From: Pirellulales bacterium | GTDB lineage: Bacteria; Planctomycetota; Planctomycetia; Pirellulales; JADZDJ01 | Length of the DNA stretch: 57,338 nt | NCBI GenBank assembly: GCA_035499655.1 | Contig: DATJYL010000048.1 | Coordinates: 1-57,338, forward strand | Direction of reading: 5' to 3' | In this document: positions 4,723 to 46,386 of the stretch, piece by piece | How the letters are laid out: each line of letters begins with the position of its first letter | Position numbering within the stretch: the first letter of the stretch is position 1 | Notes under the pieces: model-generated | Told to the model about the DNA's origin: nothing | The model's database searches: none | Seen by the model: only the letters and a program-made list of their open reading frames with translations | Program-made: the position numbers and the translations under genes

Positions 4723-4816
4723 GACATTCACCTAGCTGGTACGTCGGCGAAAATCGTCGGTTTCTATAGAGTTAATAGAACAGTGAAAAAACCTCAGTCA
4801 AGCATAATCGAGGGAT

Positions 4817-4896
4817 AGTAGTGGGCCAATTTGAACATAGCCCGACTGTGTCAGTCGGGAAAAGCGGCTGTCGGAATTTCAAATTGTCCCAACACC
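4817..4896 (+). mobile_element. MITE-like palindromic element, copy 1
   Basis: The 70-bp core 4822-4891 has 14-bp terminal inverted arms (TGGGCCAATTTGAA and TTCAAATTGTCCCA, one mismatch) around a hairpin CCCGACTGTGTCAGTCGGG. Adding the 5 bp on each side gives the 80-bp unit seen in the other copies. It is flanked exactly by the 8-bp direct repeat CGAGGGAT at 4809-4816 and 4897-4904, as expected for a target-site duplication. There is no ORF of its own. The core is identical to the reverse complement of copy 3 (46296-46375). Confidence 0.82.
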
Positions 4897-5001
4897 CGAG
4901 GGATTGTGGCATCGGCCACGCCCAGGCCATTTTTTTCAGGGCCATCAAGCGAGTTACAGAAGCGGGAAGGCCAATTGATAGCAACTGTGCTTTCGGCAAA
5001 A

Positions 5002-5090
5002 CGGAGAGGATGGGATTCGAACCCATGGTGGGCTGTGACACCCACACCGATTTAGCAAACCGGCGCTTTCGACCACTCAGCCACCTCTCC
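5002..5090 (-). tRNA. tRNA-Ser (anticodon GCT)
   Basis: Read on the minus strand, the gene begins GGAGAGGTGGCTGAGTGG and ends with the T arm GGTTCGAATCC, acceptor CCTCTCC and discriminator G. The anticodon loop TTGCTAA gives anticodon GCT, reading AGC/AGT. A long variable arm (about 20 bases with a GTGGG/CCCAC stem) is typical of tRNA-Ser. The 3' CCA is not encoded. It lies downstream of tsaD on the same strand. Confidence 0.95.
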
Positions 5091-5209
5091 AGCGATGGCG
5101 CAAACCGCCACAGCGTAACGGTTGCCAGGCCGTAATTCTATTGATTCCACTCCACGCCGCAAGGTTCAGTTGATTCCCGGTGGAGTGGATGGCAAGAAGT
5201 TTCCGGATT

Positions 5210-6232
5210 TTATCTCACCAGGCCGGGTTTGACGTCGAGACTCAATGGCTCGGTCAAACCTGCTTTCAGCCGCTCCAGGGCAATCGCCCCCATCACGGCG
5301 TTGTCGGTGCACAGTTGCGGCGGAGCAATGTGCAGCGTGAAGTCGCGCTGGCGGCAAGCTTCCTCCAGGCGCTTTCGCAACCGCAAGTTGGCCGCCACGC
5401 CGCCGCCGACGGCCAACGTCTTCAGGCCGGTTTTATCGAGCGCCAACGCCGATTTGTCGACCAAACAATCGACCACCGCTTCCTGAAAGCTGGCCGCTAA
5501 GTCGGCCACGGTTTTTTCGTCCAGATGCAATGTGTCGGCCGGCGGCGCCTTGCCGGGCGGATAAATTTGATACCGCACCGCTGTTTTCAGTCCACTAAAA
5601 CTGAACGCCAGTCGATCGCGGTCTTGCAAAAAGGCGCGGGGAAAATCGTAAGCCTGCGGATTTCCGCCGGCTGCGGCCTGCTGAATCGCCGGTCCGCCAG
5701 GGTACGGCAATCCCAGCAGGCTGGCCACTTTATCGAACGCTTCGCCCGCGGCGTCGTCGATGGTGCCCCCCAGCAATGTGAAGTCGAGCGCCGTCTGGCA
5801 GCGATACAAACTGCTGTGCCCGCCGCTGACAATCAATCCTACGCAGGGAAACAAATGCTCCGCGCCGGCCACGCGGCAGGCGTAAATGTGCGCTTGCAAA
5901 TGATCGACTGCCACCAGCGGCTTGCCCGTCGCCACGCACAAGGCCTTGGCCGCGGCCAGGCCGACGAGCAGCGAACCGGCCAGTCCCGGCGTGTTGGCCA
6001 CGGCCACAGCATCGAGTTCGTTCACCGTCAGGTTCGCCCGGCGAAGCGTCTCGTCGATAACGGGCAAAATCCGCTCCATGTGTGCCCGCGAGGCAATTTC
6101 CGGCACCACGCCGCCGAACCGCCGGTGCAAATCGTCCTGCGACGCCACCACCGAGGAAAGCACCACGAGCGGCTCGGCAATCACAGCCGCCGCCGTTTCG
6201 TCGCACGTAGTTTCCAAAACAAGGATGCGCAT
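5210..6232 (-). CDS. tsaD: tRNA N6-adenosine threonylcarbamoyltransferase TsaD
   Basis: TsaD transfers the threonylcarbamoyl group to A37 of ANN-decoding tRNAs, working with TsaB and TsaE. The 340-residue length is normal. The start MRILVLETTCDETAAAVI is the ASKHA-fold phosphate-1 motif. The metal-binding pair appears as EIASRAHMERI and DHLQAHIYA, followed by LIVSGGHSSLYR and the C-terminal AVGGGVAANLRLR and CTDNAVMGA. The family usually has HxxxH, and here the first motif reads HMERILP. A tRNA-Ser(GCT) gene, whose product reads AGC/AGU rather than ANN-start codons with t6A exception, lies just downstream on the same strand, which is probably coincidental. Confidence 0.96.
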   Translation of the reverse strand: MRILVLETTCDETAAAVIAEPLVVLSSVVASQDDLHRRFGGVVPEIASRAHMERILPVIDETLRRANLTVNELDAVAVANTPGLAGSLLVGLAAAKALCVATGKPLVAVDHLQAHIYACRVAGAEHLFPCVGLIVSGGHSSLYRCQTALDFTLLGGTIDDAAGEAFDKVASLLGLPYPGGPAIQQAAAGGNPQAYDFPRAFLQDRDRLAFSFSGLKTAVRYQIYPPGKAPPADTLHLDEKTVADLAASFQEAVVDCLVDKSALALDKTGLKTLAVGGGVAANLRLRKRLEEACRQRDFTLHIAPPQLCTDNAVMGAIALERLKAGLTEPLSLDVKPGLVR

Positions 6233-6298
6233 GGGGCAGTGCCAGTTGTCAGTGGTTGGTGCCAGAAGTAATTGGTCATTGAGCGGTGGCCGGGCGGG

Positions 6299-7411
6299 TT
6301 ACGAGCGGAACACGCTGTGCCACAGCAAGGCGGTGCCGGCGACCGCGAACATAATCCCGGCGGTAACCACATGGTAGGCATTGTGGTTGGCGCCCAGCAT
6401 CACATTTTGGTGATGCGTCGACATGCGATCCATGGCCGCCAGCAGGTTGCCCCAAAAGTGCGACAGGCCGCTGTCAGGGCTGAGGGTGATTAAGCCCGCC
6501 ATGAGAAGCAGAACCAGGCCGGCCATCAGTTCGAGGATGCGGCCGGCGGAGCCGCCGAGAAAGCGCAGCGGTTCGTCGTCGGCCGGCTCCCGTGGACCGC
6601 GCTCGATGAGTTTGGCCTCGGCCACGGCTTTGGCGTGCAGCTCTTCGGCGGCCTGCTGTTGCTGGACCACGGAAACCTGATTGGCGCGAACCAGGCCGCC
6701 GTCGTGAATCCACTGGATGATGCGCGGCAAATCGTCGGCATCGAGCCAGACGCCGTGACGACCGCAAATATCGATAATCACGCTGCTGCCGTGGCCGTAA
6801 TTTTGGCGGATCATCAATTGCTGACAGGTGGGGCAATGTCGGTAGTACAAATCACCGTCGGGCGGAGGAGCATCAGCGTGCGGCGCGCGGGCAGTGGTGG
6901 GAGTTAAACGGGGATCGATATTCAACCCTTGCTGGGCCGCTTGCTCGGTGAGCTGTTGAAACGACGCGTGGCTAAGCCACAGGCCGCCGCAGCGCTGGCA
7001 CTCCATCGTGGAAACATCTCCCAGAGCGCGGCTGCTGAGGACGTGGCCCTCGCCGCAGGCGGGGCAAACCAATTGCGAGGCGTCGCCGGCCGTGGTTTCC
7101 GGGTGAATGGCGGCGCCGCAGAATTCGCAAAACCGGGCCTGATTGCTGACGCGGGCAAAGCAGTGCGGGCAAACGGTGTCGAGATCGCGGTCATGGAGCG
7201 AGAATTCCGCGCCACAGTACGCGCAGCTGAGGGCGCCTTCGGTGCGCGGGGCGCCGCAGTGAGAGCAGCACACCGGTTTGGCTTCCTGTGATTGCGGGGC
7301 CGGAACGGTGAGAATTTGCCCACAGCGGCAGTGAAAGCGAGTGCCCACGCCCAGTTGGGTGGCATCGTACTGACGTTTGCATTGCGGGCAAGCGACCAGG
7401 AGGCGGCGCAT
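6299..7411 (-). CDS. Multi-zinc-ribbon membrane protein (zf-TFIIB type)
   Basis: This protein of about 370 residues begins MRRLLVACPQCKRQYDATQ, chosen over an upstream start because the first CPxC ribbon follows directly. It carries a chain of CxxC ribbons in the first 200 residues (CPQCKRQY, CCSHCGAPR, CAYCGAEF, CPHCFARV, CEFCGAAI, CPACGEGH, CQRCGGLW). A TFIIB-like ribbon pair with RHCPTCQQLMIR and GVWLDADDL follows. Two hydrophobic segments near the C-terminus (ILELMAGLVLLLMAG and the last about 25 residues) suggest membrane anchoring. The function is unknown; zf-TFIIB proteins of this layout are common in Planctomycetota. Confidence 0.8.
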   Translation of the reverse strand: MRRLLVACPQCKRQYDATQLGVGTRFHCRCGQILTVPAPQSQEAKPVCCSHCGAPRTEGALSCAYCGAEFSLHDRDLDTVCPHCFARVSNQARFCEFCGAAIHPETTAGDASQLVCPACGEGHVLSSRALGDVSTMECQRCGGLWLSHASFQQLTEQAAQQGLNIDPRLTPTTARAPHADAPPPDGDLYYRHCPTCQQLMIRQNYGHGSSVIIDICGRHGVWLDADDLPRIIQWIHDGGLVRANQVSVVQQQQAAEELHAKAVAEAKLIERGPREPADDEPLRFLGGSAGRILELMAGLVLLLMAGLITLSPDSGLSHFWGNLLAAMDRMSTHHQNVMLGANHNAYHVVTAGIMFAVAGTALLWHSVFRS

Positions 7412-7535
7412 GATGATACGATGCGGCAGTAATAAGATGAATTGTTTTGCGGCGGTAAATGACGGCCCGGCCACGCGAGCGGGAGCCTTTTGTTATTCGC
7501 GATACGGGAGAAAATATTGCTGCGGAAGGAAATAG

Positions 7536-7556
7536 CCGGACGGCCACGCCGTCCGG
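7536..7556. repeat. Perfect 9-bp-stem hairpin in the intergenic region
   Basis: CCGGACGGC and GCCGTCCGG flank a 3-base loop in the gap between the stop of the S41 protease gene (7608) and the start of the zinc-ribbon gene (7411), both on the minus strand. No run of T follows on either strand, so an intrinsic terminator is unlikely. It resembles a REP-type hairpin. Confidence 0.55.
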
Positions 7557-7607
7557 TCCTGAGGCTGTGAGCATCCAGCTATGGCTACCGCAGGTTCGTG
7601 AAAGTGT

Positions 7608-9434
7608 TTATTGCGTGTGGGCCAGCTCGGTGGACAAGTAATCCAGCGCTTTTTGCAGTTGACGGTCGGTGAACTTCGAGGTGTGAGGGACGAGGGACGA
7701 GGGTTGAGCGGCGGCGGATTTTTCCGATTTGCCCGGTGCGGTGACATCGGCGGAGGATTTGGCGTCGTCGTGGTGGACCTCATCGTGATGCGCGTCGTCG
7801 TGATGAGCATCATCATGCGCGTCCGCGGATGGTTTTTCTGGGCTGGCGGCGGCCAGGGTTTGCGGCGGTTTCTCCTCGTGGGAGTGGCCGGGGACAATGT
7901 CGCGCTGGCGGCGGTCTGCCAGCAGGGCGCCCATTTCGCCGTCGGACAAACGCACCTCGTAGCCGTCGTTGGGCTTCACGCCCCATTCGTCCGTTTCCTT
8001 GGAATCGGGAAAGCGATGGATGTTGTGACCGTTGGGCCGCGTGTAAGTGGCGGTGGTCAACTTCAGCGCGCTTTTGCCGTCTTCCAGCTCGATCACGTTT
8101 TGCACGCTGCCTTTGCCCCAGGTCCGCTCGCCGATGATGACGGCCCGATCGTGGTCTTGCAGGCAGGCGGAAACAATTTCGCTGGCGCTGGCGCTGTATT
8201 CGTTCACCAGCACGGCCATGGGGAAGCCTTCGAACTTGGTCGCGGGGGTGGCATCCCACACGCGCTCCGGACTGTTGCGCCCCTTGGTGCTGACAATGCG
8301 CCCCTCGCTAATGAACATGTTGCACACGTCGATGGCCGACGTGAGCAGCCCGCCGGGGTTGAATCGCAAATCGAGCACCAGGCCGCGCATTTTTTGCTGC
8401 TTCAGCGTTTCCAGGGCGCGCTTCAAATCGTCGGCGGTATCCCGGCTGAAGGCGGAAATGCGGATATAGCCGATGTGCTGGTCCGTGTCGAGCATGTAAT
8501 TCCACGTATCGTCGCTCTGGTGCGAATCGCCCATCACCGTGTCGACGTGAATCAGTTCGCGCTGGATGGTAAAGGTTTCTTCCTTGCCGGTCAGGGCGTG
8601 GCGCACGGTGAACGAGACGGTGGTGCCGACTTCGCCCTTCAGCTTGCGGACCACATCGTCCAGCGACATGCCGCGAATCGATTCGCCTTCGATCCGGATG
8701 ATTCGGTCACCCGCCAACACGCCCGCCTTATAGGCCGGCGTGCCGACCAGGGGCGTGCTGACTTTCACCTGGCCGTCGTCGGGAGTGATTTGAATGCCGA
8801 TGCCGCCGAACTGGCTTTCGACCGTGGTGCGGAAGCCGTTGATTTCGTCGGGGCTGATGTAACTGGAATAGGGATCGAGCTTGCCCAGCACCCCTTTAAT
8901 GGCGGCTTCCATCAGCTCGCGCCGGTCGATCGGCTTCACATAGTTGCGTTCCACCTGGTCGATCGTGTCGGCCAGCGATTTATAAAATTCGTAATCTTGA
9001 TCTTCCAACTGGCGACGGGCCGCGGCTTCGGCAGGGGTAACCGGGCCGGGTTTGGCGCCATCGGCGGCTGATCCTGAGCTTTTATCGTCGGCGGGTTTCG
9101 CGGAATCAGTCGATTGATCGTCCGACGATTTGGCGGAGTCGCCGGCAGGCGGGGTGGACTTTTTCTCAGATTTCTCCAGCGATCCCGGCGCGTCGGGGTC
9201 GGCTTGCGATTTGCCCTCGGCGGGTTTTGCGTCCTCGGATTTGGGGTCAGCGGGTTTGCCGTCGGCGGGTTTAGCGTCCGTGGCGGCGCCGTCGGCCGCA
9301 TGGGCGGTTCTGGCCAAAGGAGTTGTGAACACCAGCGGGGCCACGGCGGCGCCGCAGGCTGCGGCAAACATCCACAATCCAAGCAGGCGGCCCAGAGCAG
9401 AAAATTTGCCGATGCGACGAACAGACGCCTTCAT
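7608..9434 (-). CDS. S41 family C-terminal processing peptidase (CtpA/Prc-like) with charged linker and His-rich tail
   Basis: This exported serine protease has 608 residues. The order is: signal peptide (about 1-46), an Asp/Lys/Pro/Ala-rich linker (to about 130), N-terminal helices with DPYSSYISPDE, a PDZ domain (FGGIGIQITPDDGQ, YKAGVLAGDRIIRI) and the S41 core. The Ser-Lys dyad is visible as EYSASASEIVSA (about residue 415) and GERTWGKGSVQ (about 440). The C-terminus carries HDDAHHDDAHHDEVHHDD, a possible metal-binding tail not usual in CtpA. The start has GGAG about nine bases upstream. The likely role is processing of periplasmic or envelope proteins. Confidence 0.93.
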   Translation of the reverse strand: MKASVRRIGKFSALGRLLGLWMFAAACGAAVAPLVFTTPLARTAHAADGAATDAKPADGKPADPKSEDAKPAEGKSQADPDAPGSLEKSEKKSTPPAGDSAKSSDDQSTDSAKPADDKSSGSAADGAKPGPVTPAEAAARRQLEDQDYEFYKSLADTIDQVERNYVKPIDRRELMEAAIKGVLGKLDPYSSYISPDEINGFRTTVESQFGGIGIQITPDDGQVKVSTPLVGTPAYKAGVLAGDRIIRIEGESIRGMSLDDVVRKLKGEVGTTVSFTVRHALTGKEETFTIQRELIHVDTVMGDSHQSDDTWNYMLDTDQHIGYIRISAFSRDTADDLKRALETLKQQKMRGLVLDLRFNPGGLLTSAIDVCNMFISEGRIVSTKGRNSPERVWDATPATKFEGFPMAVLVNEYSASASEIVSACLQDHDRAVIIGERTWGKGSVQNVIELEDGKSALKLTTATYTRPNGHNIHRFPDSKETDEWGVKPNDGYEVRLSDGEMGALLADRRQRDIVPGHSHEEKPPQTLAAASPEKPSADAHDDAHHDDAHHDEVHHDDAKSSADVTAPGKSEKSAAAQPSSLVPHTSKFTDRQLQKALDYLSTELAHTQ

Positions 9435-9806
9435 TGCAAGTACTCCAATTTTCCTTGTTCCATAACGCCCAGGTGCAATCGAAAAGCCCGGTCCTCAATG
9501 GTCACTTCATTATAAACGACTTTCTGGGAGGGGAGCATAGCGTTTATGCAGAACATTCTGGCCTTGCGGGGAGCATGCCACCGAGCCCTTGCCGCACGAA
9601 TCGGCTTGTACGGCAGCGGCTGAAAGACCGTCCTGCACGGCATTTTACGCGCCACTGGTTTGTGGCTGCGGTGACTACAGTCGTTGCCCGGAGACATCCG
9701 ATTGGTAAGAGCGGCATGGTCTAGCGCAGGGCAGCGCATAAGTTCCACCACCGCGCGAAAGCTGGGAGCCCTAACGCGCGCATTTTCGTGTGGAAGGGGG
9801 ACCCGT
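9435..9806. other. Divergent intergenic region between the protease and GT2 genes
   Basis: These 372 bases separate two divergently oriented genes and should hold both promoters. Open frames cross it on both strands but show no family motifs. A weak inverted pair ATAAACG/CGTTTAT (about 9513-9546) is visible. No tRNA, terminator or clear sigma-70 promoter was recognised. Confidence 0.4.
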
Positions 9807-10502
9807 TTGAAACCGTCGTTAAGCGTGCTGCTGTCGGTCCATAACGCCCAGGCGGTGCTCCAGGCCGGCGTGCATAAATTGTTGGACACGTTGCCGGAAC
9901 TGACCAACCGCTTTGAAGTATTGATCATCGACGACGGCTCGACCGATGCCACCTCCGAAGTGGCCTACGATTTGGCCCGCGATTTCCCCCAAGTAAAGGT
10001 GACCCGCCACGCCACCGCCTTGGGTTGGGCCGCCGCCCTGGCCAAGCAAGCGCGATGTGCCCGGGGTGAATTTTTGATGATTCATTGCGGCGGCGCGATC
10101 GACGCCGACGAAGTGGTTTCGCTGTGGCGAATGCGCAATCGCATGGCCGCGGCGGCAGGTGCGCACACAAATGCAAAGGATAAGGCCGGGCCGCGCGGAA
10201 AATCGTGGCGGGTGGACGCCCAATCGCAGACAACCGTGCCGCCGGCGGCGGGGAAAATCCAGTTCACCCAACTGCTCGGCGGAAAGTGCCTTCACGCCCG
10301 GGCCCCCAAATCCAACTTCTTATTGCTCGGGCGGGGGCAGTTGGAGCGGCTGGAGCATTCGCTGGCGGCCATTCCGCGGCCCAATTGGTTGGAAGCACCC
10401 GCCCCGAAACGGAGCCACAGCCAGCAGGCACTGAATAAACAGCACAACCTGAAATCGCCCAGCATTTTGGGGCGCGTGCGGAATTTCACGTTGGGTGAGT
10501 AA
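9807..10502 (+). CDS. GT2-like glycosyltransferase, short and with a degenerate second motif
   Basis: The frame extends upstream to 9684, but homology starts at KPSLSVLLSVHNAQA. TTG at 9807 is therefore the likely start, with GGAAGGGGG at 9792-9800. The 231-residue product shows the nucleotide-sugar-binding GT-A motif EVLIIDDGSTDAT and GWAAALAKQARCARGEFLMI. Where GT2 enzymes normally have an Asp-x-Asp at the end of this segment, the sequence reads IHCGGAIDADE. The rest is short and Lys/Arg-rich. It may be an inactive or specialised GT2 homologue. Confidence 0.7.
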   Translation: MKPSLSVLLSVHNAQAVLQAGVHKLLDTLPELTNRFEVLIIDDGSTDATSEVAYDLARDFPQVKVTRHATALGWAAALAKQARCARGEFLMIHCGGAIDADEVVSLWRMRNRMAAAAGAHTNAKDKAGPRGKSWRVDAQSQTTVPPAAGKIQFTQLLGGKCLHARAPKSNFLLLGRGQLERLEHSLAAIPRPNWLEAPAPKRSHSQQALNKQHNLKSPSILGRVRNFTLGE

Positions 10503-10715
10503 GCCGATAGGCAGAACCTGCCCAGCTGTAAGCCGGTGATGTCATGGCCGGCGATTTGTGGCGCTGCAGCTCGCTTTGTTCCATCCCCGTCCCCGTTTTA
10601 TTGCGCCGAACTCTCGGTTAGAATGCACCGCTTGCGGCAATCACAGAATTGCCGACTTTTCAGTCTAAATGCGCGGTGCATTGGGTCCGCGCTTTCTTAC
10701 GGGGAGGTTTCGGCC

Positions 10716-11963
10716 ATGAGGCGTTCGAAAATCGCTTCGAAAGATAACGTTAGCAAAATTCTGGAACGCGCGCTTGACGCCGGCGAGGGTCTGCTGCGGC
10801 TCACGCCCACGTGGGTGCCGCGCAGCTTTTTGCACCCAGGCAAGCGCATCAAACTGCATCCGGACGATTGGTATGCCTACGGCGCCCAGCGCGGCGGCAT
10901 TGACGAACGCTGGTTCGCCAGCACCACCGAAGCCGCCAACGAAGGCCGGCTGCCCGACGAAGGGTTAAGTTACGCAGCGTTTGGCGGCGAGCGATTCACG
11001 CTGCGCGATGCCGTGGCCGAGGCGGGAGCGCGGCTGATCGGCCGAGCGATGTTCGACAAATACAAACACTGGCCGGTGTACTCCAAATTCTTCGACAACA
11101 TGGGCCCCATTCCGCATCACATGCACCAGGGCTTCGAGCACGCCAAGCTCGTGGGCCAGGAAGGCAAGCCGGAAAGTTATTATTTCTGCCCGCAATACAA
11201 CAACTGCGACAATCATTTTGCGTACACCTTCATGGGCTTGGAGCCGGGCACGACGAAAGCCCAAGTGCGGCGGTGCCTGGAGAATTGGAACCAAGGGGAC
11301 AATGGCATTTTAGATTTGTCGCGGGCCTACCGGTTGAAGCGCGGCACGGGTTGGTTGATTCCGCCGGGGGTGCTGCACGCGCCGGGCTCGCTCTGCACGT
11401 ACGAGCCGCAATGGGGAAGCGACGTGTTCGGCATGTTTCAATCGATTGTCGAAGGGCGGTACGTGCCCTGGTCGCTGCTGGTGAAAGACATGCCCCAGGA
11501 AAAACACCACGATTTGGATTTCATCGTCAGCGAGCTCGATTGGGAACGCAACGTCGACACGCATTTCAAAGAACACAATTATTTGGAACCGATTGCGGAC
11601 AGCGCGAAATCGGGCTCAGGCTTCACCGACCGCTGGATTGTGTACGGCACAATCGACGGCGTGCAGCTGTTCAGCGCCAAGGAATTGACCGTGGAGCTCG
11701 GCGCGAAGTGTGTGCTGAAAGAACCCGGCGCCAGCGGTTGGATCACCGTACAAGGCAAGGGACGGATGGGGAAGCTGAATTTGCAAACCCCGGCGATGAT
11801 TCGCTTCGGCGAGGAAACCGAGGACGAAGTTTTCATTTCGCACGAAGCAGCGGCCCGCGGCGTGGAAATCGAAAACACCGGCAGCGAACCGCTCGTCGGG
11901 CTACGTTATTTCGGCCCCGACGTGCACGCCAATTTGCCGAAGGTGGGTGATCACACGAGATAA
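10716..11963 (+). CDS. Cupin-like protein of a sugar cluster (phosphomannose-isomerase-like)
   Basis: ATG 10716 has GGGGAGG at 10701-10707; the upstream extension of the frame lacks homology. The protein has 415 residues. PIPHHMHQGFEHAKL has the closely spaced His residues of a metal-binding cupin, and GTGWLIPPGVLHAPGS is the second cupin motif. The general look recalls type I phosphomannose isomerases, but I do not recognise a precise family. Its neighbours are a xylose-isomerase-like TIM barrel and a Gfo/Idh dehydrogenase, so a role in sugar or polyol metabolism is inferred. The stop codon is immediately followed by a REP repeat. Confidence 0.7.
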   Translation: MRRSKIASKDNVSKILERALDAGEGLLRLTPTWVPRSFLHPGKRIKLHPDDWYAYGAQRGGIDERWFASTTEAANEGRLPDEGLSYAAFGGERFTLRDAVAEAGARLIGRAMFDKYKHWPVYSKFFDNMGPIPHHMHQGFEHAKLVGQEGKPESYYFCPQYNNCDNHFAYTFMGLEPGTTKAQVRRCLENWNQGDNGILDLSRAYRLKRGTGWLIPPGVLHAPGSLCTYEPQWGSDVFGMFQSIVEGRYVPWSLLVKDMPQEKHHDLDFIVSELDWERNVDTHFKEHNYLEPIADSAKSGSGFTDRWIVYGTIDGVQLFSAKELTVELGAKCVLKEPGASGWITVQGKGRMGKLNLQTPAMIRFGEETEDEVFISHEAAARGVEIENTGSEPLVGLRYFGPDVHANLPKVGDHTR

Positions 11964-12073
11964 CCCAAGCCGACGGCTCCGCCGTCGAACGAATTGCAAA
12001 AAACATAACCATTTCAACCCCAAGCCGACGGCTCCGCCGTCGGATAACCGACGACCAAGTCGTCGGCTTGGGA
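11964..12073. repeat. REP/REPIN-like compound repeat, left of the RAYT gene
   Basis: A hairpin unit (GACGGCTCCGCCGTC after CCCAAGCC) is followed by an A-rich spacer (GAATTGCAAAAAACATAACC). A pair of hairpins in opposite orientation comes next (GACGGC-TCC-GCCGTC, then CCGACGAC-CAA-GTCGTCGG), bounded by outer arms CCCAAGCCGAC and GTCGGCTTGGG. It starts directly after the stop codon of the cupin gene. It is repeated almost identically at 12667-12775. Confidence 0.85.
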
Positions 12074-12103
12074 ATGAAATTGAATCCTCAATGGAATATA
12101 TCC

Positions 12104-12664: not shown

Positions 12665-12666
12665 TG

Positions 12667-12775
12667 CCCAAGCCGACGGCTCCGCCGTCGAACGAATTGC
12701 AAAAAAACATAACCATCCCAACCCCAAGCCGACGGCTCCGCCGTCGAATAACCGACGACCAAGTCGTCGGCTTGG
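12667..12775. repeat. REP/REPIN-like compound repeat, right of the RAYT gene
   Basis: It has the same arrangement as 11964-12073: single hairpin, A-rich spacer, then paired opposing hairpins with outer arms CCAAGCCGAC/GTCGGCTTGG. Only a handful of differences are visible, including one extra A in the spacer. The two copies are direct repeats framing the RAYT gene. Confidence 0.85.
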
Positions 12776-12807
12776 AAATCCATATTTCAAATCCGGAATC
12801 ATCCATC

Positions 12808-13837
<1,030 letters not shown>

Positions 13838-13839
<2 letters not shown>

Positions 13840-14255: not shown

Positions 14256-14256
14256 T

Positions 14257-14312: not shown

Positions 14313-14333
14313 TCATCCCTCTCCCAAACTCAC

Positions 14334-21279: not shown

Positions 21280-21349
21280 GTTGTTTCTCGACGCGCGGCC
21301 CTCTCAATCTAAAGTCCCCAGCCGAATTTAAGCCACAACTGGCCCAATT

Positions 21350-21429
21350 GGTGGTGGGACAATTTGAACACAGCCCGACTATGTCAGTCGGGAAAAGCGG
21401 CTGTCAGAATTTCAAATTGTCCCACAACT
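21350..21429 (+). mobile_element. MITE-like palindromic element, copy 2
   Basis: The core 21355-21424 is a perfect 14-bp inverted pair (TGGGACAATTTGAA/TTCAAATTGTCCCA) around CCCGACTATGTCAGTCGGG. It differs from copies 1 and 3 at only a few positions. The 80-bp unit is flanked by GGCCCAATT at 21341-21349 and 21430-21438. The direct repeat extends leftward to 17 bp (CCACAACTGGCCCAATT) because the right element end also reads CCACAACT. Confidence 0.8.
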
Positions 21430-21439
21430 GGCCCAATTC

Positions 21440-34985: not shown

Positions 34986-35012
34986 CGACTGTTCTGGTGA
35001 GGCAATCTACTC

Positions 35013-36609: not shown

Positions 36610-36616
36610 AGCAGAT

Positions 36617-36645: not shown

Positions 36646-36647
36646 GG

Positions 36648-39600: not shown

Positions 39601-39737
39601 CCTTGCAGCAAATAACCGCTGGCGGCCGTCACTTGCAATCCGGAAGCGAGCCCCAATTCGGCGGCGTCGGCAGCCACTTGCAAGGCCAACCGGTCTGGCT
39701 GGCCCGGCGCCGGATAGATGTCAATCTCCCAGAGCAT
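36648..39737 (-). CDS. purL: PurS-PurS-PurL fusion: phosphoribosylformylglycinamidine synthase
   Basis: ATG 39737 gives 1029 residues; small PurL proteins are about 740. Residues about 1-72 ([20 protein letters not shown]) and about 107-178 ([20 protein letters not shown]) each resemble PurS. The PurL synthetase follows: [64 protein letters not shown] and [17 protein letters not shown]. It lacks a glutaminase domain, supplied by purQ next in the operon. Residues about 76-104 are encoded by a REP-like GC-rich palindrome in frame. The gene start overlaps the tyrA stop by 17 bases. Confidence 0.93.
39424..39500. repeat. REP-like palindromic sequence inside the purSL reading frame
   Basis: On the minus strand the stretch begins CCCTCTCCCTCTGGGGGCGG and ends GGCAGGGTGAGGGAG. 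Such CCCTCTCCC...GGGTGAGGG palindromes are a common intergenic repeat type in bacteria. Here it is read as a Gly/Ser/Pro-rich linker ([20 protein letters not shown]) between the two PurS-like domains. Confidence 0.65.
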
Positions 39738-40572
39738 CGCGAACTTGTTTCCCTTCCGTGAGTAGGGCGTGAAGCTGTGCGGCATCGCCGCGCTCGATTG
39801 CCGTCCGAAACGCTGTCACCTTTTTCTCAAACCCGGCCAGCGACTTCAAGACGTGGGCTTGATTTTCCAGGAGAATTTGGGTCCACAAGGCGGGATCGCC
39901 CGCTGCGATGCGGGTTAAATCGCGCCAGCCACCGGCGGTGAGGGGCAAATCGGCCGGCGGTGTATTTGCCGCGACTGCCGCGGAAATCAAATGGGGAACG
40001 TGGCTGGTGCCGGCCAAAGCCAGATCGTGAATTTCCGGCGACATGGTCAGAACGTTGGACCCCAGGGCAGACCAAAAATCGGCGATTTCTTTTGCATCGG
40101 CGGCTTTGGTGCGCGAGGTGGGAGTGACAATCGCGACGCGGCCTTCGAATAAATCTGCCCGGGCGAATTCAACGCTTTTTTTTTCGCTGCCAGCCAACGG
40201 ATGACTGCCCACAAAGCGTTTGCCCGGCTTAAGCGCGGCTTCCACCTTGCGGATGATGGCGGCCTTGGTGCTGCCGGCATCGGTAAGAATTGTCTGATCG
40301 GACGATCCCTTCGCGGCTAGCAAAATGTGGTTGGCAATTTCGCCGACGGGCGTACACACGATGACAACATCGGCGGCGGCCATGCCTTGTGGCATGTCAG
40401 TCACCGACGAAGTAATGGCGCCAAGCTGTTTCGCTTTTTCCAGATTGGGACCCGATTGCGGTCGGCCGATGCCGACAATTTCGGCTGCCAGCCCTTTTTT
40501 GCGCAGCGCCAAACCGATCGAGCCACCGATCAAACCGACGCCGATAATGGCTACCGTATTCCAGCGAGGCAT
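39721..40572 (-). CDS. tyrA: Prephenate/arogenate dehydrogenase TyrA
   Basis: This protein of 283 residues in tyrosine biosynthesis begins [20 protein letters not shown], an NAD(P)-binding Rossmann motif. Also visible are [40 protein letters not shown] and [20 protein letters not shown] with the catalytic His, then [17 protein letters not shown]. No chorismate mutase or ACT domain is present. ATG 40572 has AGGA about eight bases upstream; a GTG at 40578 lies too close to it. It overlaps purSL by 17 bases, so the two are probably translated together. Confidence 0.95.
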
Positions 40573-40703
40573 GGGCACTATCCTGCCATAAGGACAAGGC
40601 TTTTACCAAGCCCCGGTTCGGCAGTGTCCTAGAACTGTGATGCTGCGGGCAAGCTGCTAAAATGCGCGTTGATACTGGCGGTAGTGTCTTAACTGTTTGT
40701 TAC

Positions 40704-40967
40704 TCAAGTGGGGTTGGTTGGCTGGTCGGTAAATAGCCATCGTATGAATGTAGCTGCAAAGATCACGCAACCAGTGGCAATCAAAAAGAGCGATACCTCC
40801 CGGTAAATTGCCTCGGGCGATCCCCAAGAATCCATGTATCTGCCTCCACTCATTCCCGTCACCGTGATCACGGGCGGCCACACGATACTGCCACACTGCC
40901 AGCGCAACACGAGTCCAATTGCCAACAGAACTGCTGCGCATAGATAACCGATAATAAGTTTCGCCAT
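40704..40967 (-). CDS. Small two-helix membrane protein (87 aa)
   Basis: A very good ribosome site (GGGGGG, about six bases before ATG 40967) precedes a frame encoding two hydrophobic helices: LIIGYLCAAVLLAIGLVLRW at the start and SLFLIATGCVIFAATFIRWL near the end. A short polar loop (TGMSGGRYMDSWGSPEAIYR) lies between. I recognise no family. It stands alone upstream of tyrA, on the same strand but 131 bases away. Confidence 0.65.
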   Translation of the reverse strand: MAKLIIGYLCAAVLLAIGLVLRWQCGSIVWPPVITVTGMSGGRYMDSWGSPEAIYREVSLFLIATGCVIFAATFIRWLFTDQPTNPT

Positions 40968-41080
40968 ATCAACCCCCCAGTGTTTGGTTGTCTGCCGATG
41001 CTAATTCTACCTTAGCGGGCCCGTCTGTTAAATGCCCGGCGCTTCTGAGTTCTAGGATGCTACCCTGGTTCGGTGCAGTT

Positions 41081-41107
41081 TTGAACCGAGACAGGTAGTG
41101 GTATAAT
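41081..41107 (+). promoter_or_regulatory. Possible promoter of the toxin-antitoxin pair
   Basis: TTGAAC (41081-41086) and TATAAT (41102-41107) are spaced by 15 bases, 44 bases before the antitoxin ATG. The spacing is slightly short for sigma-70. Confidence 0.45.
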
Positions 41108-41151
41108 TGAGGGCGCCCTAACTAAACCATCATTATTGGGCAGGTGCATTC

Positions 41152-41373
41152 ATGACACGCGTCACCGTCGACAGTTCGCTCCAGGCCAAATTGACCGGCA
41201 GCGATCCGTTGGTTTTGTGCAGCGAGACTGGGCAAGTATTGGGCTATTTTCATCCCGTGCCGCCGCCGGGAACCATCCAATCGCCGTTTACGGATGAGGA
41301 AATCGAGCGCCGCCGGCAAGATCGGAAGGGAAGCCCACTCACCGATGTGCTAAATCGCCTCGGTGAAAAATGA
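41152..41373 (+). CDS. Putative antitoxin of a type II toxin-antitoxin pair
   Basis: This protein of 73 residues has GGCAGGTG ahead of the ATG. It contains LVLCSETGQVLGYFHPVPPP, a segment seen in small antitoxin-like proteins of planctomycetes and cyanobacteria. A charged C-terminal helix follows (FTDEEIERRRQDRKGSPLTD), ending LNRLGEK, which is likely to bind the toxin. The stop overlaps the start of the downstream toxin-like gene by four bases (ATGA), typical of co-translated pairs. No DNA-binding domain is obvious. Confidence 0.72.
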   Translation: MTRVTVDSSLQAKLTGSDPLVLCSETGQVLGYFHPVPPPGTIQSPFTDEEIERRRQDRKGSPLTDVLNRLGEK

Positions 41374-41630
41374 GTTTCACCGTAATCTGGACAAAGTTCG
41401 CCGAGAGCGATCTGGCGGATATTTGGCTTCGCGCCGTAAACCGCCGGGAAATTGCCGAAGCCACTTCCAAGTTGGACGCGGTGCTGAAATCTGATCCGCA
41501 CAATTCCGGTGAATCACGAACCGGCAACGTTCGAATTACTTTCAGTGGCCCACTTGGAATCCACTTCGAAGTGCTGGCAGCTGATCGGATTGTATACGTC
41601 TTGGCCGTGTGGCGAATCGATCACAATTAG
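41370..41630 (+). CDS. RelE/ParE-like toxin
   Basis: This protein of 86 residues begins MSFTVIWTKFAESDLADIWL, the usual start of ParE/RelE-fold toxins (strand, then a helix with a Leu-rich face). It ends with strand pairs GIHFEVLAADRIVYVLAVWR. The conserved Arg/Tyr pattern (SRTGNVRITFSG) resembles RelE-type toxins, but whether it is an mRNA interferase or a gyrase poison cannot be decided. The gene overlaps the antitoxin gene by four bases. Confidence 0.8.
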   Translation: MSFTVIWTKFAESDLADIWLRAVNRREIAEATSKLDAVLKSDPHNSGESRTGNVRITFSGPLGIHFEVLAADRIVYVLAVWRIDHN

Positions 41631-41654
41631 GTGCTCGAAGTAGCCGCGCCACTT

Positions 41655-42509
41655 TTACACTTCGGCCGGTTGCACTTCGCCTTCCAGACCGGCGGCCAGC
41701 TTGTGCAGGGCTTCGGTTTCGATTTGCCGCACACGTTCGCGGGTCAGGCCCAGCGCTTCGCCAATTTCTTTCAGCGTGCGGGGCTCGTTGTCTTCCAGGC
41801 CGAAGCGCATCCGCAGGACGGTGGCTTCGCGGGCGTCCATGGTTTGCAACATTTGCATGACGTGGTGCAAATTGTCGCTGTTGAGCAGCATTTCCTCGGG
41901 GGGCTTGGTGGCGTCGTCGGTGACCATTTCGCCCAACGACCAGCCGGCTTCGGGCTGATCGGTTTGCGGTGTGCTGTTATAAATGCGGATGGCTTTTTTG
42001 ATGATCGACAGCTTTTTCCGCGGCAGCCCCAACACGCGGCCCACTTCTTCCGGCGTGGGAGAGCGGCCGAGCTCTTCGGTCAGGCGAGCACTGGCACGGC
42101 GCCACTTGGAAAGCAGCTCCACCATGTACGCTGGAATGCGGATGGTTTTGGCGGAGTTGATGAGGGCCCGTTTGATCGATTGTTTGATCCAATAACTGGC
42201 GTAAGTGCTGAAGCGGGTGCCCATGGCCGGATCGAACCCTTCGACCGCCCGCAACAGGCCCAGATTGCCTTCTTCGATCAGATCTTGCAGCCCCAGGCCT
42301 TTGCCGGTGTATCCGCGAGCGATGTTGACGACCAACCGCAAATTGGCGCGGACCATGCGATCCCGTGCTTTGACGTCGCCGTTGCCAATGGCAATGGCCA
42401 ATTCCTGCTCCTGCGGCCCATTGAGGAGGGCGGTTTCGTTGATCTCGCGGAGATAAGTCTCCAGCGGAGTTTGGACGGCCGCGGCAGGGCGGCGACGTGT
42501 GGTAGGCAT
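41655..42509 (-). CDS. RNA polymerase sigma factor of the RpoD/SigA (sigma-70) family
   Basis: This protein of 284 residues covers region 1.2 (TPLETYLREINETALL), region 2 (RMVRANLRLVVNIARGYTGK, IEEGNLGLLRAVEGFDPAMG, TRFSTYASYWIKQSIKRALI), region 3 (YMVELLSKWRRASARLTEEL) and region 4 (VLRMRFGLEDNEPRTLKEIG, then LTRERVRQIETEALHKL). The size and the absence of a long region 1.1 resemble group 2 or short primary sigma factors. ATG 42509 is chosen by homology; the ribosome site is weak. An extension to 42599 has no homology. Confidence 0.93.
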   Translation of the reverse strand: MPTTRRRPAAAVQTPLETYLREINETALLNGPQEQELAIAIGNGDVKARDRMVRANLRLVVNIARGYTGKGLGLQDLIEEGNLGLLRAVEGFDPAMGTRFSTYASYWIKQSIKRALINSAKTIRIPAYMVELLSKWRRASARLTEELGRSPTPEEVGRVLGLPRKKLSIIKKAIRIYNSTPQTDQPEAGWSLGEMVTDDATKPPEEMLLNSDNLHHVMQMLQTMDAREATVLRMRFGLEDNEPRTLKEIGEALGLTRERVRQIETEALHKLAAGLEGEVQPAEV

Positions 42510-43002
42510 AGTCGAGTGCGTTTCTCTTTTCTTGGCTAGTGGCAGCGGCGCAGCCACTTGAGAGACCATGGGAGCCTGCAGGGGGTTCCGTCTGCACAAA
42601 CGTAGCTATCGACCTCGCTTTCCGATCTTCTCCAATACCGTGCGGACTTGGCAACGTGAACCGGATATAGTCAGGATGCTGCCCGTACCGAACAGCACGC
42701 TTGGTGCGGATTGGCGCGGATCGACGATTGCACCGGTTTCTGACGATTGCTGCGGGCCAATAAAACGATTCAGCGTGTTCAACGGTTTCCGCAAGGCGCG
42801 CGCTGAGCGCATGGCCGAACGATTGTGCGTGCTATACCGGTCGTAGGCAGAAACGCATGCGCTGGCAGGTGAGTGCAAAGAATGCCAGGAGGTCGGCTTA
42901 CCGCCGTCTGGAGATCGCCTTTGTGGCCCTGGTTGGCTGCCACGTGCCGCAAATTAGGCCAACCGCCGAGTCGTTGGCGTTCCGATGGAAATATCTACTG
43001 AC
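42510..43002. other. Intergenic region upstream of the sigma factor gene
   Basis: About 490 bases between the rpsA stop and the sigma factor start, both on the minus strand. Some open frames cross it, but none has motifs or a ribosome site. I see no tRNA, repeat of the window families or clear terminator. It presumably holds the sigma gene promoter and leader. Confidence 0.45.
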
Positions 43003-44811
43003 TTATTCGCCAGCCGACTGAATCAGCGGGCCGCTTTTGCCCACGCCGCCTTTGAGTTCGGATGCAGGGGTGCCGGAGGCGCCATTGGCGCCGCCGCCAT
43101 TCTCGCCGCCAGAACCTTCGCCGCCGGCCCCGGCTCTTTCTTCCGCCTCATGCTCTTCGCTCCATTGCACCCGCTTACGTGAGAGGCCAATTTTGCGTTC
43201 CTCGGTGTCGACGCGCAGAATTTTGACTTCGATTTCGTCGCCCACTTTGACGATTTCTTCCGGGTTTTCCACCTTGTGGTCGGCCAACTCGGAAATGTGC
43301 AGCAAACCTTCCAGACCGTTTTCCAGGCCCACAAACACGCCGAAGTTGGTGAGCTTAGTCACTGTGCCTTTGACGATTTGGCCCGACTGGTAACGGCTGG
43401 GGATATCCGTGGCCCAGGGATCGTCTTCCATTTGCTTTAGTCCCAGGGCGATTCGGCGGCGCTGCTGATCGACCGAGAGGACCTTGCACTTGATTTTTTG
43501 TCCCTTCTCGACCACCTCGCTGGGATGGCTGATTTTGCGGGTCCAGGACATATCGCTGACGTGCAGCAGGCCGTCGATGCCTTCTTCAATTTCGATGAAG
43601 GCTCCGTAATTGGTGAGATTCCGCACGGTGCCTTCCACCAGAGTGCCAATCGGGTAGCGATCGGCCACTTTGTCCCAGGGATTGTCCTGGGTTTGCTTCA
43701 TGCCGAGCGAAATTTCGTGCTTTTCCTTGTCGATTTTGAGGACGACCACTTGTACTTCGTCGTCAATGTGCACCAATTCGTTGGGATGGCTGATGCGCTT
43801 GGTCCACGACATTTCGCTGATGTGAACCAAGCCTTCGATGCCTTCTTCCATTTTCACGAACGCGCCGTAGCTCATCACGTTGACCACGGTGCCCTTGTGC
43901 ACCGAGCCAACCGGATACTTTTCCGCCACATTGTCCCAGGGACTGGCGGTTTTTTGCTTGAGGCCGAGGGCGATTTTTTCCCGTTCGCGGTCGATGTGCA
44001 GAATTTGCACTTCTAATTCCTGATCGATGGCCACCATTTCGGACGGATGGCCGATGCGGCCCCAGCTCATGTCGGTAATGTGCAACAGGCCGTCGATGCC
44101 TCCCAAATCGACAAAGGCGCCGAACTCGGCGATGTTTTTCACCACGCCCTTGCGCAACTGGCCTTCCTGCAACGTTTCCAACAGTTGTTTTTTCTTTTCG
44201 GTCCGTTCTTGCTCGATGAGCGCACGGCGGCTGACGACAATGTTGCGGCGCGACTCGTCAATTTTGAGCACCAAGCATTGAATGGTGCGGCCCACGTAAT
44301 CGCCAATGTCGGACGGGCGGCGAATATCGACCTGGCTGGCAGGCAAAAAGACGTTCACGCCGCTTACATCGACCAGCAAACCGCCCTTGATTTTTCGCGT
44401 GACGGCGCCCGTCACTACGTCCCCTTCCTTGACCGAATCCATCACCTTGTTCCATTCTTCGATCTTGCGCGCTTTGCGCTTAGACAAGGCAATCAGGCCG
44501 CGGGCTTCGAGATCGGTGCTTTCATCGACTTCCTCGATCAGGACCTTCAGGTGCTGGCCGATTTCGGGCGGGTCTTCCGATTCATCCCATTCGTGGCGGG
44601 GAATTTGGCCTTCGCTTTTATAACCGACATCGACCAACACAAACTCATCATCAACACGGATAATGCGCCCCTCGACGATTGCATTTTCGTTCAGGTCAAC
44701 ATTGGCCACGGCCAAGGAGCCGCTGGCGGCATCGGACATGGCGAGATCTAGTTCCCGATCCAACTCTTCGTCGTCGATATCCAATCCGCGAATTAAGTTT
44801 CGATTGACCAT
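43003..44811 (-). CDS. rpsA: 30S ribosomal protein S1
   Basis: This protein of 602 residues has six S1 OB-folds in order: EGRIIRVDDEFVLVDVGYKS; GAVTRKIKGGLLVDVSGVNV; KGVVKNIAEFGAFVDLGGID; KGTVVNVMSYGAFVKMEEGI; EGTVRNLTNYGAFIEIEEGI; KGTVTKLTNFGVFVGLENGL. The N-terminal short domain pair and four canonical RNA-binding domains match S1. The C-terminus is a Gly/Glu/Ala-rich tail (AGGEGSGGENGGGANGA). The region before ATG 44811 has no good Shine-Dalgarno sequence, as is common for rpsA mRNAs. Confidence 0.96.
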   Translation of the reverse strand: MVNRNLIRGLDIDDEELDRELDLAMSDAASGSLAVANVDLNENAIVEGRIIRVDDEFVLVDVGYKSEGQIPRHEWDESEDPPEIGQHLKVLIEEVDESTDLEARGLIALSKRKARKIEEWNKVMDSVKEGDVVTGAVTRKIKGGLLVDVSGVNVFLPASQVDIRRPSDIGDYVGRTIQCLVLKIDESRRNIVVSRRALIEQERTEKKKQLLETLQEGQLRKGVVKNIAEFGAFVDLGGIDGLLHITDMSWGRIGHPSEMVAIDQELEVQILHIDREREKIALGLKQKTASPWDNVAEKYPVGSVHKGTVVNVMSYGAFVKMEEGIEGLVHISEMSWTKRISHPNELVHIDDEVQVVVLKIDKEKHEISLGMKQTQDNPWDKVADRYPIGTLVEGTVRNLTNYGAFIEIEEGIDGLLHVSDMSWTRKISHPSEVVEKGQKIKCKVLSVDQQRRRIALGLKQMEDDPWATDIPSRYQSGQIVKGTVTKLTNFGVFVGLENGLEGLLHISELADHKVENPEEIVKVGDEIEVKILRVDTEERKIGLSRKRVQWSEEHEAEERAGAGGEGSGGENGGGANGASGTPASELKGGVGKSGPLIQSAGE

Positions 44812-45239
44812 GAAAAATTTCTGCTGTCGGAAACTTGGCTACTTGTCACGAAACAGTTTTCGGCACGTGAAAGAATTTGATCTTCACCAAGCCGATGGGC
44901 GGCGACAAATCAGGAGCACACACCGCAACGGCGGATTGCCCTGAACACGGCCGGCTTACTCCCTCGATACGAACCATTGCAGAAGCCGCGTCGCGCTGAA
45001 AGAAAAGAAACCAATTCCGAGTTAAAGGACATCCCTCGCTGGCGGCCCAGAACCGTACACCGGCGCTGAAAACAGGCCCCTGAGGGTAGCCCGACAATAT
45101 ATCACGATTGTGCTCGTGCTACAATCGCGGGCAGCACGATCAGTTAGTTTGGGGGTTTTGTTCACTGCCGAACAGCGTTGTGGCAGCGCGGGTGCGTGAC
45201 CACTTTCGTGATTTACCGCCGGTTTGCTATGCTGAATTC
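44812..45239. other. Divergent intergenic region between rpsA and the M50 protease gene
   Basis: About 430 bases that should contain both promoters. Bases 45095-45125 hold AT-rich words (ACAATATATCACG and CTACAATCG) that could be -10 boxes, without a convincing -35 partner. No gene or repeat of the window families was found. Confidence 0.4.
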
Positions 45240-46289
45240 ATGAATCCCCTACCCGGCCCGTCCGATTTGCCCTCCGCCGCCGAAAAACCTGCAACTCCTT
45301 TTCCGGCGGCTGCATTCCCGACGGCGGTAGCCAAGCCCGTCATGTCGTCAGCTTCGGCTGCTTCGTATCCGTCCGTGCCACGGCAGATGTTGGACGAATT
45401 CGACTTGGGCATGCCGCGGCGGCGGCGGGCGCTGCCACTGGTGTTGTTTTTGCTGACCTGCTTTTTCACTTACGCGGCCGGCACGTATCATTGGGCGCCC
45501 ACTCTGTTTGGATTTCAAGGCGAACAATGGAATTGGAACGCAACCTGGCACCAACTGAAAGCCAACTGGGCAGATGGCTTAACCTACATGGGCTGTGTCA
45601 TGGCGGTGCTATTGGCCCACGAAATGGGGCACTTTTTGATGACCGTGCGGTATCGCGTGCCAGCCAGTTATCCCATTTTCATCCCGATGCCTATCATGCT
45701 TACCGGCACGATGGGAGCGGTGATCGGCATGGAGGGCTTTCGGGCCAACCGACGGCAAATGTTCGATATCGGATTAGCCGGCCCGTTGGCCGGATTGGCG
45801 GTGACCATTCCGCTGGTGTGGATTGGCATTAAAATTGGCGAACACGCGCTTCCACAACATGGCGGTTTTATCTTCGGCGATCCGCTGTTGGCCAGATGGC
45901 TCATTCACTGGTTACGGCCCGACATGGCGCCTGGTGAAGAACTGGTGATGAACCCGGTTTACATGGCCGGCTGGGTGGGAATGTTCGTCACCGGATTGAA
46001 CATGATGCCTGTCAGCCAGCTCGACGGTGGGCATGTGATTTATGCCTTATTCCTGGGGCGCTCGAGGATTATCGCGCGGGGGTTTTTACTGGCGGCGATT
46101 GCGTATATTGTTCTTGCCCACCAAGTTTCGTGGACGTTGATGATTGTGATTGTCACGTTCATTGGCGTCGATCATCCGCGCACTGCGGACGACACGGTTC
46201 CCTTGGGCGCGGTGCGAACCATTCTGGGCCTGCTCTCGCTGGCGCTGCCGGTGCTTTGTTTTACGCCGTTCCGCATGCAGTCGGTGTGA
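45240..46289 (+). CDS. Site-2 protease family (M50) membrane zinc metalloprotease
   Basis: The product is about 349 residues. A Pro/Ala-rich N-terminal region of about 60 residues precedes a multi-pass membrane domain. The intramembrane zinc site is visible: VLLAHEMGHFLMTVRYRVPA (HExxH) and MMPVSQLDGGHVIYAL (LDG motif with the third ligand). PIFIPMPIMLTGTMGAVIGM lies between them and resembles plant EGY and bacterial relatives. Which protein it cleaves is unknown. The start has a weak ribosome site, so an earlier start is possible. Its TGA overlaps the target duplication of MITE copy 3. Confidence 0.9.
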   Translation: MNPLPGPSDLPSAAEKPATPFPAAAFPTAVAKPVMSSASAASYPSVPRQMLDEFDLGMPRRRRALPLVLFLLTCFFTYAAGTYHWAPTLFGFQGEQWNWNATWHQLKANWADGLTYMGCVMAVLLAHEMGHFLMTVRYRVPASYPIFIPMPIMLTGTMGAVIGMEGFRANRRQMFDIGLAGPLAGLAVTIPLVWIGIKIGEHALPQHGGFIFGDPLLARWLIHWLRPDMAPGEELVMNPVYMAGWVGMFVTGLNMMPVSQLDGGHVIYALFLGRSRIIARGFLLAAIAYIVLAHQVSWTLMIVIVTFIGVDHPRTADDTVPLGAVRTILGLLSLALPVLCFTPFRMQSV

Positions 46290-46295
46290 CCACCG

Positions 46296-46375
46296 GGTGG
46301 TGGGACAATTTGAAATTCCGACAGCCGCTTTTCCCGACTGACACAGTCGGGCTATGTTCAAATTGGCCCACCACC
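46296..46375 (-). mobile_element. MITE-like palindromic element, copy 3
   Basis: This 80-bp unit has ends GGTGGTGGGACAATTTGAA and TTCAAATTGGCCCACCACC on the + strand (one internal mismatch). Its core 46301-46370 is the exact reverse complement of copy 1. It is flanked by the perfect 8-bp direct repeat GACCACCG at 46288-46295 and 46376-46383. The left duplication overlaps the stop codon of the M50 gene. It fills the gap between two convergent genes. Confidence 0.88.
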
Positions 46376-46386
46376 GACCACCGCTG

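Follow-up and report, generated by a model that had tools for sequence, protein, structure and literature searches.

The 57,338-nt stretch analyzed here (the window) is contig C48 of the 4.54-Mb draft genome of a Pirellulales bacterium (the own genome, G000; 244 contigs). It carries three copies of an 80-bp non-coding element, which is a miniature inverted-repeat transposable element (MITE): at least 40 scored copies occur in the own genome, most of them between target-site duplications. Its central hairpin is a repetitive extragenic palindrome (REP) that is also found outside the MITE. We consider it very probable that an IS1-like transposase acting in trans, from the clade found on contig C1 of the own genome and on contig C135 of its sister genome (G001), has moved the MITE with the REP as its interior. 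Contigs and fetched loci are labelled Cn and Lnnn, respectively.

A genome-wide MITE family and its target-site duplications

A scan of the own genome with the 80-bp element yielded at least 40 scored copies among 61 first-look candidates. A search with the 19-bp end motif, for which nine of the 10 isolated sites were fetched (C196:19498 was left out), added a copy truncated at the end of C141 and two decayed ones (64/80 bases on C161 and 68/80 on C180). The consensus, GGTAGTGGGCCAATTTGAACATAGCCCGACTGTGTCAGTCGGGAAAAGCGGCTGTCGGAATTTCAAATTGTCCCACCACC, is the exact sequence of nine of the 40 copies, among which 26 distinct sequences occur. It has terminal inverted repeats of about 19 bp (GGTAGTGGGCCAATTTGAA and GGTGGTGGGACAATTTGAA) and contains no open reading frame (ORF). 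An exact repeat flush with the element borders flanks 28 of the 40 copies (25 of 8 bp and three of 9 bp), and 37 have a repeat matching at least 7/8 or at least 8/9 bases. Neither level was ever reached in 1000 random pairings of left with right flanks, and no two of the 25 exact 8-bp repeats are alike. These flanking repeats are target-site duplications. The median length of the longest open frame across the emptied site is 519 nt compared to 1005 nt at random positions in the same loci (31 of the 40 copies, in loci of at least 2 kb), which argues that insertion prefers non-coding DNA. Among the 10 copies with the longest such frames, eight junctions lie within 25 codons of a frame end. Those of the other two (L001 and L020) are interior to frames that are not gene-like by eye.

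In the window, copy 1 (4817-4896, forward strand) lies between exact 8-bp duplications CGAGGGAT at 4809-4816 and 4897-4904, and holds the REP palindrome ATAG-CCCGACTGTGTCAGTCGGG at 4837-4859 (forward). Copy 2 (21350-21429, forward) is more diverged, sharing 71/80 bases with copy 1 and 74/80 with copy 3. It is flanked by exact 9-bp duplications GGCCCAATT (21341-21349 and 21430-21438) and has the REP hairpin GCCCGACTATGTCAGTCGGG at 21373-21392 (forward). Its direct repeat can be extended to 17 bp (CCACAACTGGCCCAATT; 21333-21349 and 21422-21438) since the host sequence at that place is the same as the right tip of the element. Copy 3 (46296-46375, reverse strand) is located between two convergent ORFs. 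Its exact 8-bp duplications GACCACCG occupy 46288-46295, overlapping the stop codon of an M50-peptidase ORF that ends at 46289, and 46376-46383; its palindrome ATAG-CCCGACTGTGTCAGTCGGG lies at 46333-46355 (reverse). Copies 1 and 3, identical at 77/80 bases, have their three differences at element positions 1, 4 and 76, so that positions 5-75 are the same in opposite orientation. The two ends of copy 3 agree at 18/19 bases, and in the predicted RNA fold of the element the ends pair with each other. With up to three mismatches, the 19-bp end motif has six matches in the window against 0.02 expected from shuffles. The first-pass annotation, made from the letters of the window alone, had described these three copies, the repeats of 8, 9 and 8 bp and the identical, oppositely oriented cores of copies 1 and 3, all of which were confirmed. 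Its statement that the window lacks a matching transposase holds for IS1-like proteins, whose eight matches in the own genome (E ≤ 1e-5) are all outside C48. A promoter and terminator scan around copy 3 found no site within the element, and an Rfam scan of the window returned one tRNA.

An empty site is displayed by a MITE with similar ends in the sister genome. This 119-bp MITE-like element (L114, 1524-1642; ends GGCCGTCGCCTAATTTGG / GGTGGTCGTCTAATTTGA, 14/19 alike) is nested in a REP-carrying repeat of the sister and has an exact 8-bp TTTTACAT on either side. In four copies that were compared, the host repeat is uninterrupted: TTTTACAT occurs once in L096 and L110, TTTTACGT occurs once in L091, and L088 is diverged there. 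At copy 3, both convergent genes align with an orthologous stretch of the sister (G001:C160) with no MITE between them, and the gap between the aligned parts measures 35 bp in the sister versus 150 bp in the window. Among the checks proposed in the first-pass annotation, the genome search with the element and its flanks gave the 40 or more copies and the 37 duplications reported above, and the comparison with empty sites succeeded for the 119-bp element and not, base for base, at copies 1 and 3. Because of the copy number, the duplications and the empty site of a similar-ended MITE, the 80-bp element is assigned as a MITE, and this part of the first-pass annotation is strongly supported.

A REP palindrome inside the MITE

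An unanchored search for the central hairpin (up to two mismatches) found 49 places in the own genome, of which 41 are in MITEs (the cut copy included) and eight elsewhere. Seven of these eight are preceded by a 5' ATA. In its strict form, ATAG-CCCGAC-N7-GTCGGG, the hairpin has 43 matches in the own genome (35 in MITEs, eight outside) and 38 in the sister, and was not found in 28 other genomes searched. Among the 35 of 38 sister REPs that were fetched, 20 have exactly the hairpin of the MITE. Ends resembling those of the MITE (at least 12/17) adjoin three of these 35 on both sides, seven on one side and 25 on neither, while the rate at random positions is 0.5% and 1.7% per side.

The same REP family accompanies genes resembling REP-associated tyrosine transposases (RAYTs). 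On C145 of the own genome, three REPs (CCCGACCG-TGT-CGGTCGGG) surround such a gene, whose product has 175 amino acids, with an inverted pair on one side and a single REP on the other. On C39 of the sister, an inverted pair (CCCGACTC-TGT-GAGTCGGG) adjoins one side of a RAYT-like gene, and others follow about 1.5 kb further. The two proteins are 65% identical; their matches to NF047646 are below the cut-off and those to Pfam Y1_Tnp above it. The stem of the RAYT-adjacent REP has one pair that differs from the MITE hairpin, being GACCG/CGGTC in G000 and GACTC/GAGTC in G001. As these stem changes are paired, they suggest that the hairpin is maintained independently of the MITE.

Within the MITE, the REP segment is the most conserved part. 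Over the 40 copies, four of its 24 columns vary compared to 30 of 56 elsewhere (Fisher p = 0.003), and seven mismatches fall in the REP segment (counted here as 25 columns), 31 in the 19 columns of the left end, 15 in the 18 of the spacer and 23 in the 19 of the right end, bearing in mind that the copies were picked by similarity and that a single column holds 15 of the 31 left-end changes. The central hairpin is a REP inside the MITE. The first-pass annotation had opposed a REP-type palindrome and a MITE as alternatives; the MITE stands, their mutual exclusion does not.

Different repeated palindromes surround the Y1 transposase genes of L074 (C80), L075/L069 (C145) and L076 (C138), and this suggests that the own genome holds three RAYT/REP systems. 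The L074 match contains one stop. Around the Y1 genes of L071-L073, neither of the two REP patterns checked was matched.

IS1-like transposons as the candidate parent group

A scan of named genomes with GGTRGTGGGMCAATTTGA (the own genome possibly omitted) returned 23 stretches, for a hand estimate of about 30 by chance. Four have a nearby partner end. The largest (L125; 433-3600, 3168 bp) is in a metagenome-assembled genome (MAG) labelled Asgard and has an exact 8-bp duplication, an IS1-related transposase and the ends GGTAGTGGGCCAATTTGAA (19/19, this being the end for which the scan selected) and GGTAGTGGGTCAATTTGGA (17/19). The other three measure 135 bp (L123, Acidobacteriota MAG; 8/8 duplication), 126 bp (L130, Chitinophagaceae MAG; 8/8) and 852 bp (L139, SAR202 MAG; 7/8). 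L123 and L130 are MITE-like, with ends similar to those of the 80-bp MITE and cores that hold CGCAAAGGCGC or CGCAGAGGCGCAGAG repeats. No convincing partner end accompanies the remaining 19 stretches, which resemble chance matches.

The L125 transposase has IS1 as its best NCBIfam match (E 1e-13, 51.7 bits). Among 246 genomes of the order, 45 hold relatives of it (E ≤ 1e-5), with eight matches in the own genome (seven loci) and four in the sister. Ends were searched de novo at the seven own loci, at sister C135, C148 and C152 (C143 was left out) and at 30 further loci (L141-L170) whose flanks do not exceed 1.5 kb. The sister C135 element (L177; 893-4176, 3284 bp) has ends GGTAGTGGGTCAGTTTGAAATC / GGCAGTGGGTCAGTTTGAAATT, which match those of the MITE at 17 and 16/19, and an exact 8-bp GAGATGCC duplication. 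On C1 of the own genome (L171; 72-2937, 2866 bp), both ends are GGTAGTGCGTCAGTCTAATC, each 13/19 to the MITE, with an exact 8-bp GAATGAGC duplication. Exact 8-bp duplications also flank a G090 element (3048 bp; ends 15 and 16/19), the own C236 (4264 bp; end GGTACTGGTAAACGAACG) and C146 (2413 bp; end GGTAGTGTCTTAAGAGTG) elements and the sister C148 element (2361 bp; ends 14/18 alike). Among L141-L170, only L154 (656-3703) has complete ends; none were found at the other 29 with their short flanks, at sister C152, or at the second gene of own C236, C158, C214 and C159 (C158 and C159 run into contig ends). The ends of the complete IS1-like elements start GGTnnTG, save for one end in two of them, which starts GGC. 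The search for insertion sequences (IS) with ends matching the MITE, also proposed in the first-pass annotation, yielded IS1-like elements in the sister, in G090 and in L125, and in the own genome the C1 element with ends of 13/19.

Of the 15 loci whose transposases are closest (L141-L155), 10 show an end of at least 15/19 within 200 bp downstream, on the 3' side of the transposase, compared to three of the 15 more distant loci (L156-L170) in the same position; the maximum for 30 shuffled ends per locus is 14. These scores use the two MITE ends alone. Adding a third variant, taken from L125, raised scores by one, and when this T variant is allowed 10 of the 15 closest loci reach at least 16. 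The C1 and C135 transposases are 85% identical, yet the two elements disagree at several positions of their ends, which points to drift of the ends in this lineage. Three own MITE copies (L031, L034 and L035, the last one base off) have a right end of the GGTRGTGGGTCAGTTTGAAATT type, as on the C135 element.

NF033558 (IS1) is the best NCBIfam match for all four transposases examined (L125, L154, L171 and L177; E 1e-13 to 3e-15). Three residues, D68, D140 and E204 (L171 numbering), are invariant across nine aligned transposases, and we read them as the putative catalytic triad. Classical IS1 members have two overlapping ORFs joined by a frameshift, and single-ORF subgroups exist. The four transposases here are single ORFs of 280-316 amino acids without the classical two-ORF frameshift layout. 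The IS1 end motif is GGTnnTG, which fits one printed example. The evidence points to IS1-like transposons as the best-fitting parent group, which was not among the examples (IS66, ISL3, ISAs1 and IS256) given in the first-pass annotation.

Several candidates for a full-length partner in the own genome were discarded. The isolated end sites on C46, C98, C210, C214 and C223 look like chance, and an end-like site on C168 has no visible partner. A 2.1-kb element from this site to a MITE 2 kb away was rejected, as that MITE has its own 7/8 duplication; by eye, no transposase was recognized among the ORFs in between, for which no search was made. An IS1595 parent found no support on the visible side of its locus: the single own-genome transposase of this family has no matching end in the 1875 bp visible (best 12/19), and contig C126 ends inside the match.

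Passenger genes accompany the transposases of L171, L177, L154 and L125. Across these elements they encode an AAA ATPase (weakly Orc1/Cdc6-like), a HigA/IrrE-like fusion, a P63C-domain protein (L154), and a weakly HicB-like protein with an SDH/ClpP-like protease. The motif GG(L/K)KGGKARA marks a small basic protein present in L125, L171 and L177, and the P63C protein of L154 has a similar N-terminus by eye.

Proposed movement, alternatives and related systems

In the account that we favor, IS1-like transposons would supply a DDE transposase in trans, which would bind the MITE ends, excise or copy the element and insert it, mostly between genes. Repair of the staggered nicks would then yield the 8-bp (sometimes 9-bp) duplications. 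The interior REP would stem from the host REP/RAYT system and would have been captured between IS1-type ends, apparently before amplification. We infer the movement itself, the driving transposase, the capture of the REP by RAYT insertion and a function of the REP in the MITE.

A number of observations weigh against this account. Three of the 40 copies have no good flush duplication (L023 and L032, with seven exact bases each, and L027, with 5/8). The exact MITE ends were found on no full-length transposon of the own genome, whose C1 element matches them at 13/19, and the strict end GTNGTGGGACAATTTGNA (A variant only) is absent from 395 other genomes of the order and confined to the own genome. 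L125 is a single short MAG contig of 4.2 kb, possibly mis-binned, and its host is uncertain. All four transposases score 52-57 bits against an NCBIfam IS1 cut-off of 100; Pfam DDE_Tnp_IS1 is above its cut-off only in L154, just below in L125 and absent for L171 and L177. Left of copy 1 nothing aligns with the sister genome, so no empty site was recovered, and at copy 3 the intergenic DNA of the sister is too diverged for a base-for-base empty site. Finally, the transposase searches covered only IS1595 and the IS1-like protein.

This last point, together with the missing exact ends on any full-length own-genome element and the presence of an IS1595 transposase at the end of contig C126, equally speaks for a plain MITE of a non-IS1 DDE family with 8-9 bp duplications (IS66, ISL3, ISAs1, IS256 or IS1595), whose end likeness to IS1-like transposons would be convergence. 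We regard this as quite unlikely: the visible side of the IS1595 locus offers no matching end, 10 of the 15 closest IS1-like transposases adjoin an end of at least 15/19, more than any shuffled end reached, and complete IS1-like elements carry exact 8-bp duplications. The hairpin could also be original MITE sequence and the stand-alone REPs eroded MITEs. Ten of the 35 fetched sister REPs indeed keep a MITE end on one or both sides, and the RAYT-adjacent form differs from the MITE hairpin by one stem pair only. An erosion of this kind is nevertheless unlikely, given that the other 25 have no MITE end although their hairpin fits the strict pattern, that the RAYT-adjacent REPs show paired stem changes and inverted pairs, and that the palindromes in other MITEs with similar ends are REP-like but unrelated.

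The adjacency of the REP family to a RAYT-like gene in both genomes, and the low variability of the REP segment, would fit the spread of a REP/REPIN-type repeat by a RAYT, an HUH tyrosine transposase, in which case the direct repeats would be incidental. To our knowledge, RAYT/IS200-type transposition makes no target duplication, yet 37 of the 40 copies are duplicated, flush with the 80-bp ends and not with the REP; most of the fetched sister REPs, moreover, have no MITE end. A RAYT route is therefore contradicted by the duplications for the whole 80-bp unit, which makes this reading highly improbable, and is possible for the REP alone. Movement in trans by an IS1-like transposase, with the REP as interior, accordingly remains the preferred reading.

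Compared to known systems, the elements resemble the IS1 family (NF033558) in their GG(T/C)nnTG ends, 8-bp duplications and related transposase. They differ by a length of 2.9-3.3 kb with passenger genes and by single-ORF transposases below the NCBIfam cut-off, while the MITE has no ORF. The IS bounding Tn6645 are closest to the IS1-family ISAba3 and have ends GGTGGTGTTTCAAAAAGTATGCTG, and Tn6645 has 8-bp duplications (PMC6382973). ISCaa4, an IS1-family member, is described with two overlapping ORFs (PMC3196728). MITEAba12 from Acinetobacter is likewise short, non-coding, present in many copies, flanked by duplications and provided with ends common to a co-resident IS; it differs in being mostly 113 bp, with 9-bp duplications, and in its attribution to ISAba12, and the portion of the source seen does not mention REPs (PMC6382973). 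The 5'-tagged short palindrome, mostly outside genes, with inverted pairs and an adjoining Y1 transposase gene, matches the REP/RAYT systems, including bacterial interspersed mosaic elements (BIMEs) and REPINs (PMC3733652). The difference is that 35 of the 43 strict own-genome REPs ride in a duplication-flanked MITE. ISMae3, an IS1-like element of Microcystis, also inserts between genes, altering neighbouring expression, and as a full IS it encodes its own transposase; the MITE treated in the same paper is attributed to an ISL3-type transposase (PMC11448079). In the part of the literature examined, neither the nesting of REPs in MITEs nor a MITE of such IS1-like transposons was the subject of a paper.

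We thus describe a new MITE family, itself of a known kind, that is unusual for its REP cargo and for having passenger-carrying IS1-like transposons as its likely parents. As a rule, MITEs and REPs are regarded as distinct repeat classes with separate transposases. Here, many near-identical MITEs with REP cargo share a genome with IS1-like transposases and with a RAYT-like gene whose REPs match, making the origin and spread of the REP and the formation of the MITE directly testable. The MITE ends link the family to passenger-carrying IS1-like transposons of this bacterial order and of a contig binned as an Asgard archaeon.

Other MITEs of the two genomes also have REP-like cores. A 133-bp MITE of the sister has ends GGTAGTGGGCCAATTTGAT and a palindrome pair of the GGGTGGCYGGGGTCGA...GAGCCCC type, with duplications of 7/8 (L101), 8/8 (L112) and, by eye, an exact GAATTTTG (L097); L115 seems to be without its right end. 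This palindrome is also found singly in three other fetched sister loci, and no RAYT was tied to it. The nested element of L114 carries a TGTAGCGACGGCTGTCC pair (GTAG type), whose relatives flank another RAYT-like gene of the own genome (L074). Such recurrent coupling makes a single accident less likely. It is possible, though doubtful, that IS1-like-ended MITEs of this genus repeatedly build their interior from unrelated REP-like palindromes (ATAG-CCCGAC, GGTGGC-GGGGTCGA and GTAG-tagged), that two mobile systems of different chemistry, a DDE transposase duplicating its targets and a RAYT moving single-stranded hairpins, jointly spread the composite and that the cargo is kept because it is helpful. 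If so, the REP might help through RAYT-assisted movement, hairpin-aided transposition or harmless intergenic insertion. A further MITE-like element, roughly 140 bp long, lies on C146 of the own genome; it contains a GC-rich pair with a TGTAG tag, and its flanking repeat is near-flush. At this locus (L176, 1846-4407), it adjoins the 2413-bp IS1-like transposon, and GGAGCGAT is repeated at or near the borders of both.

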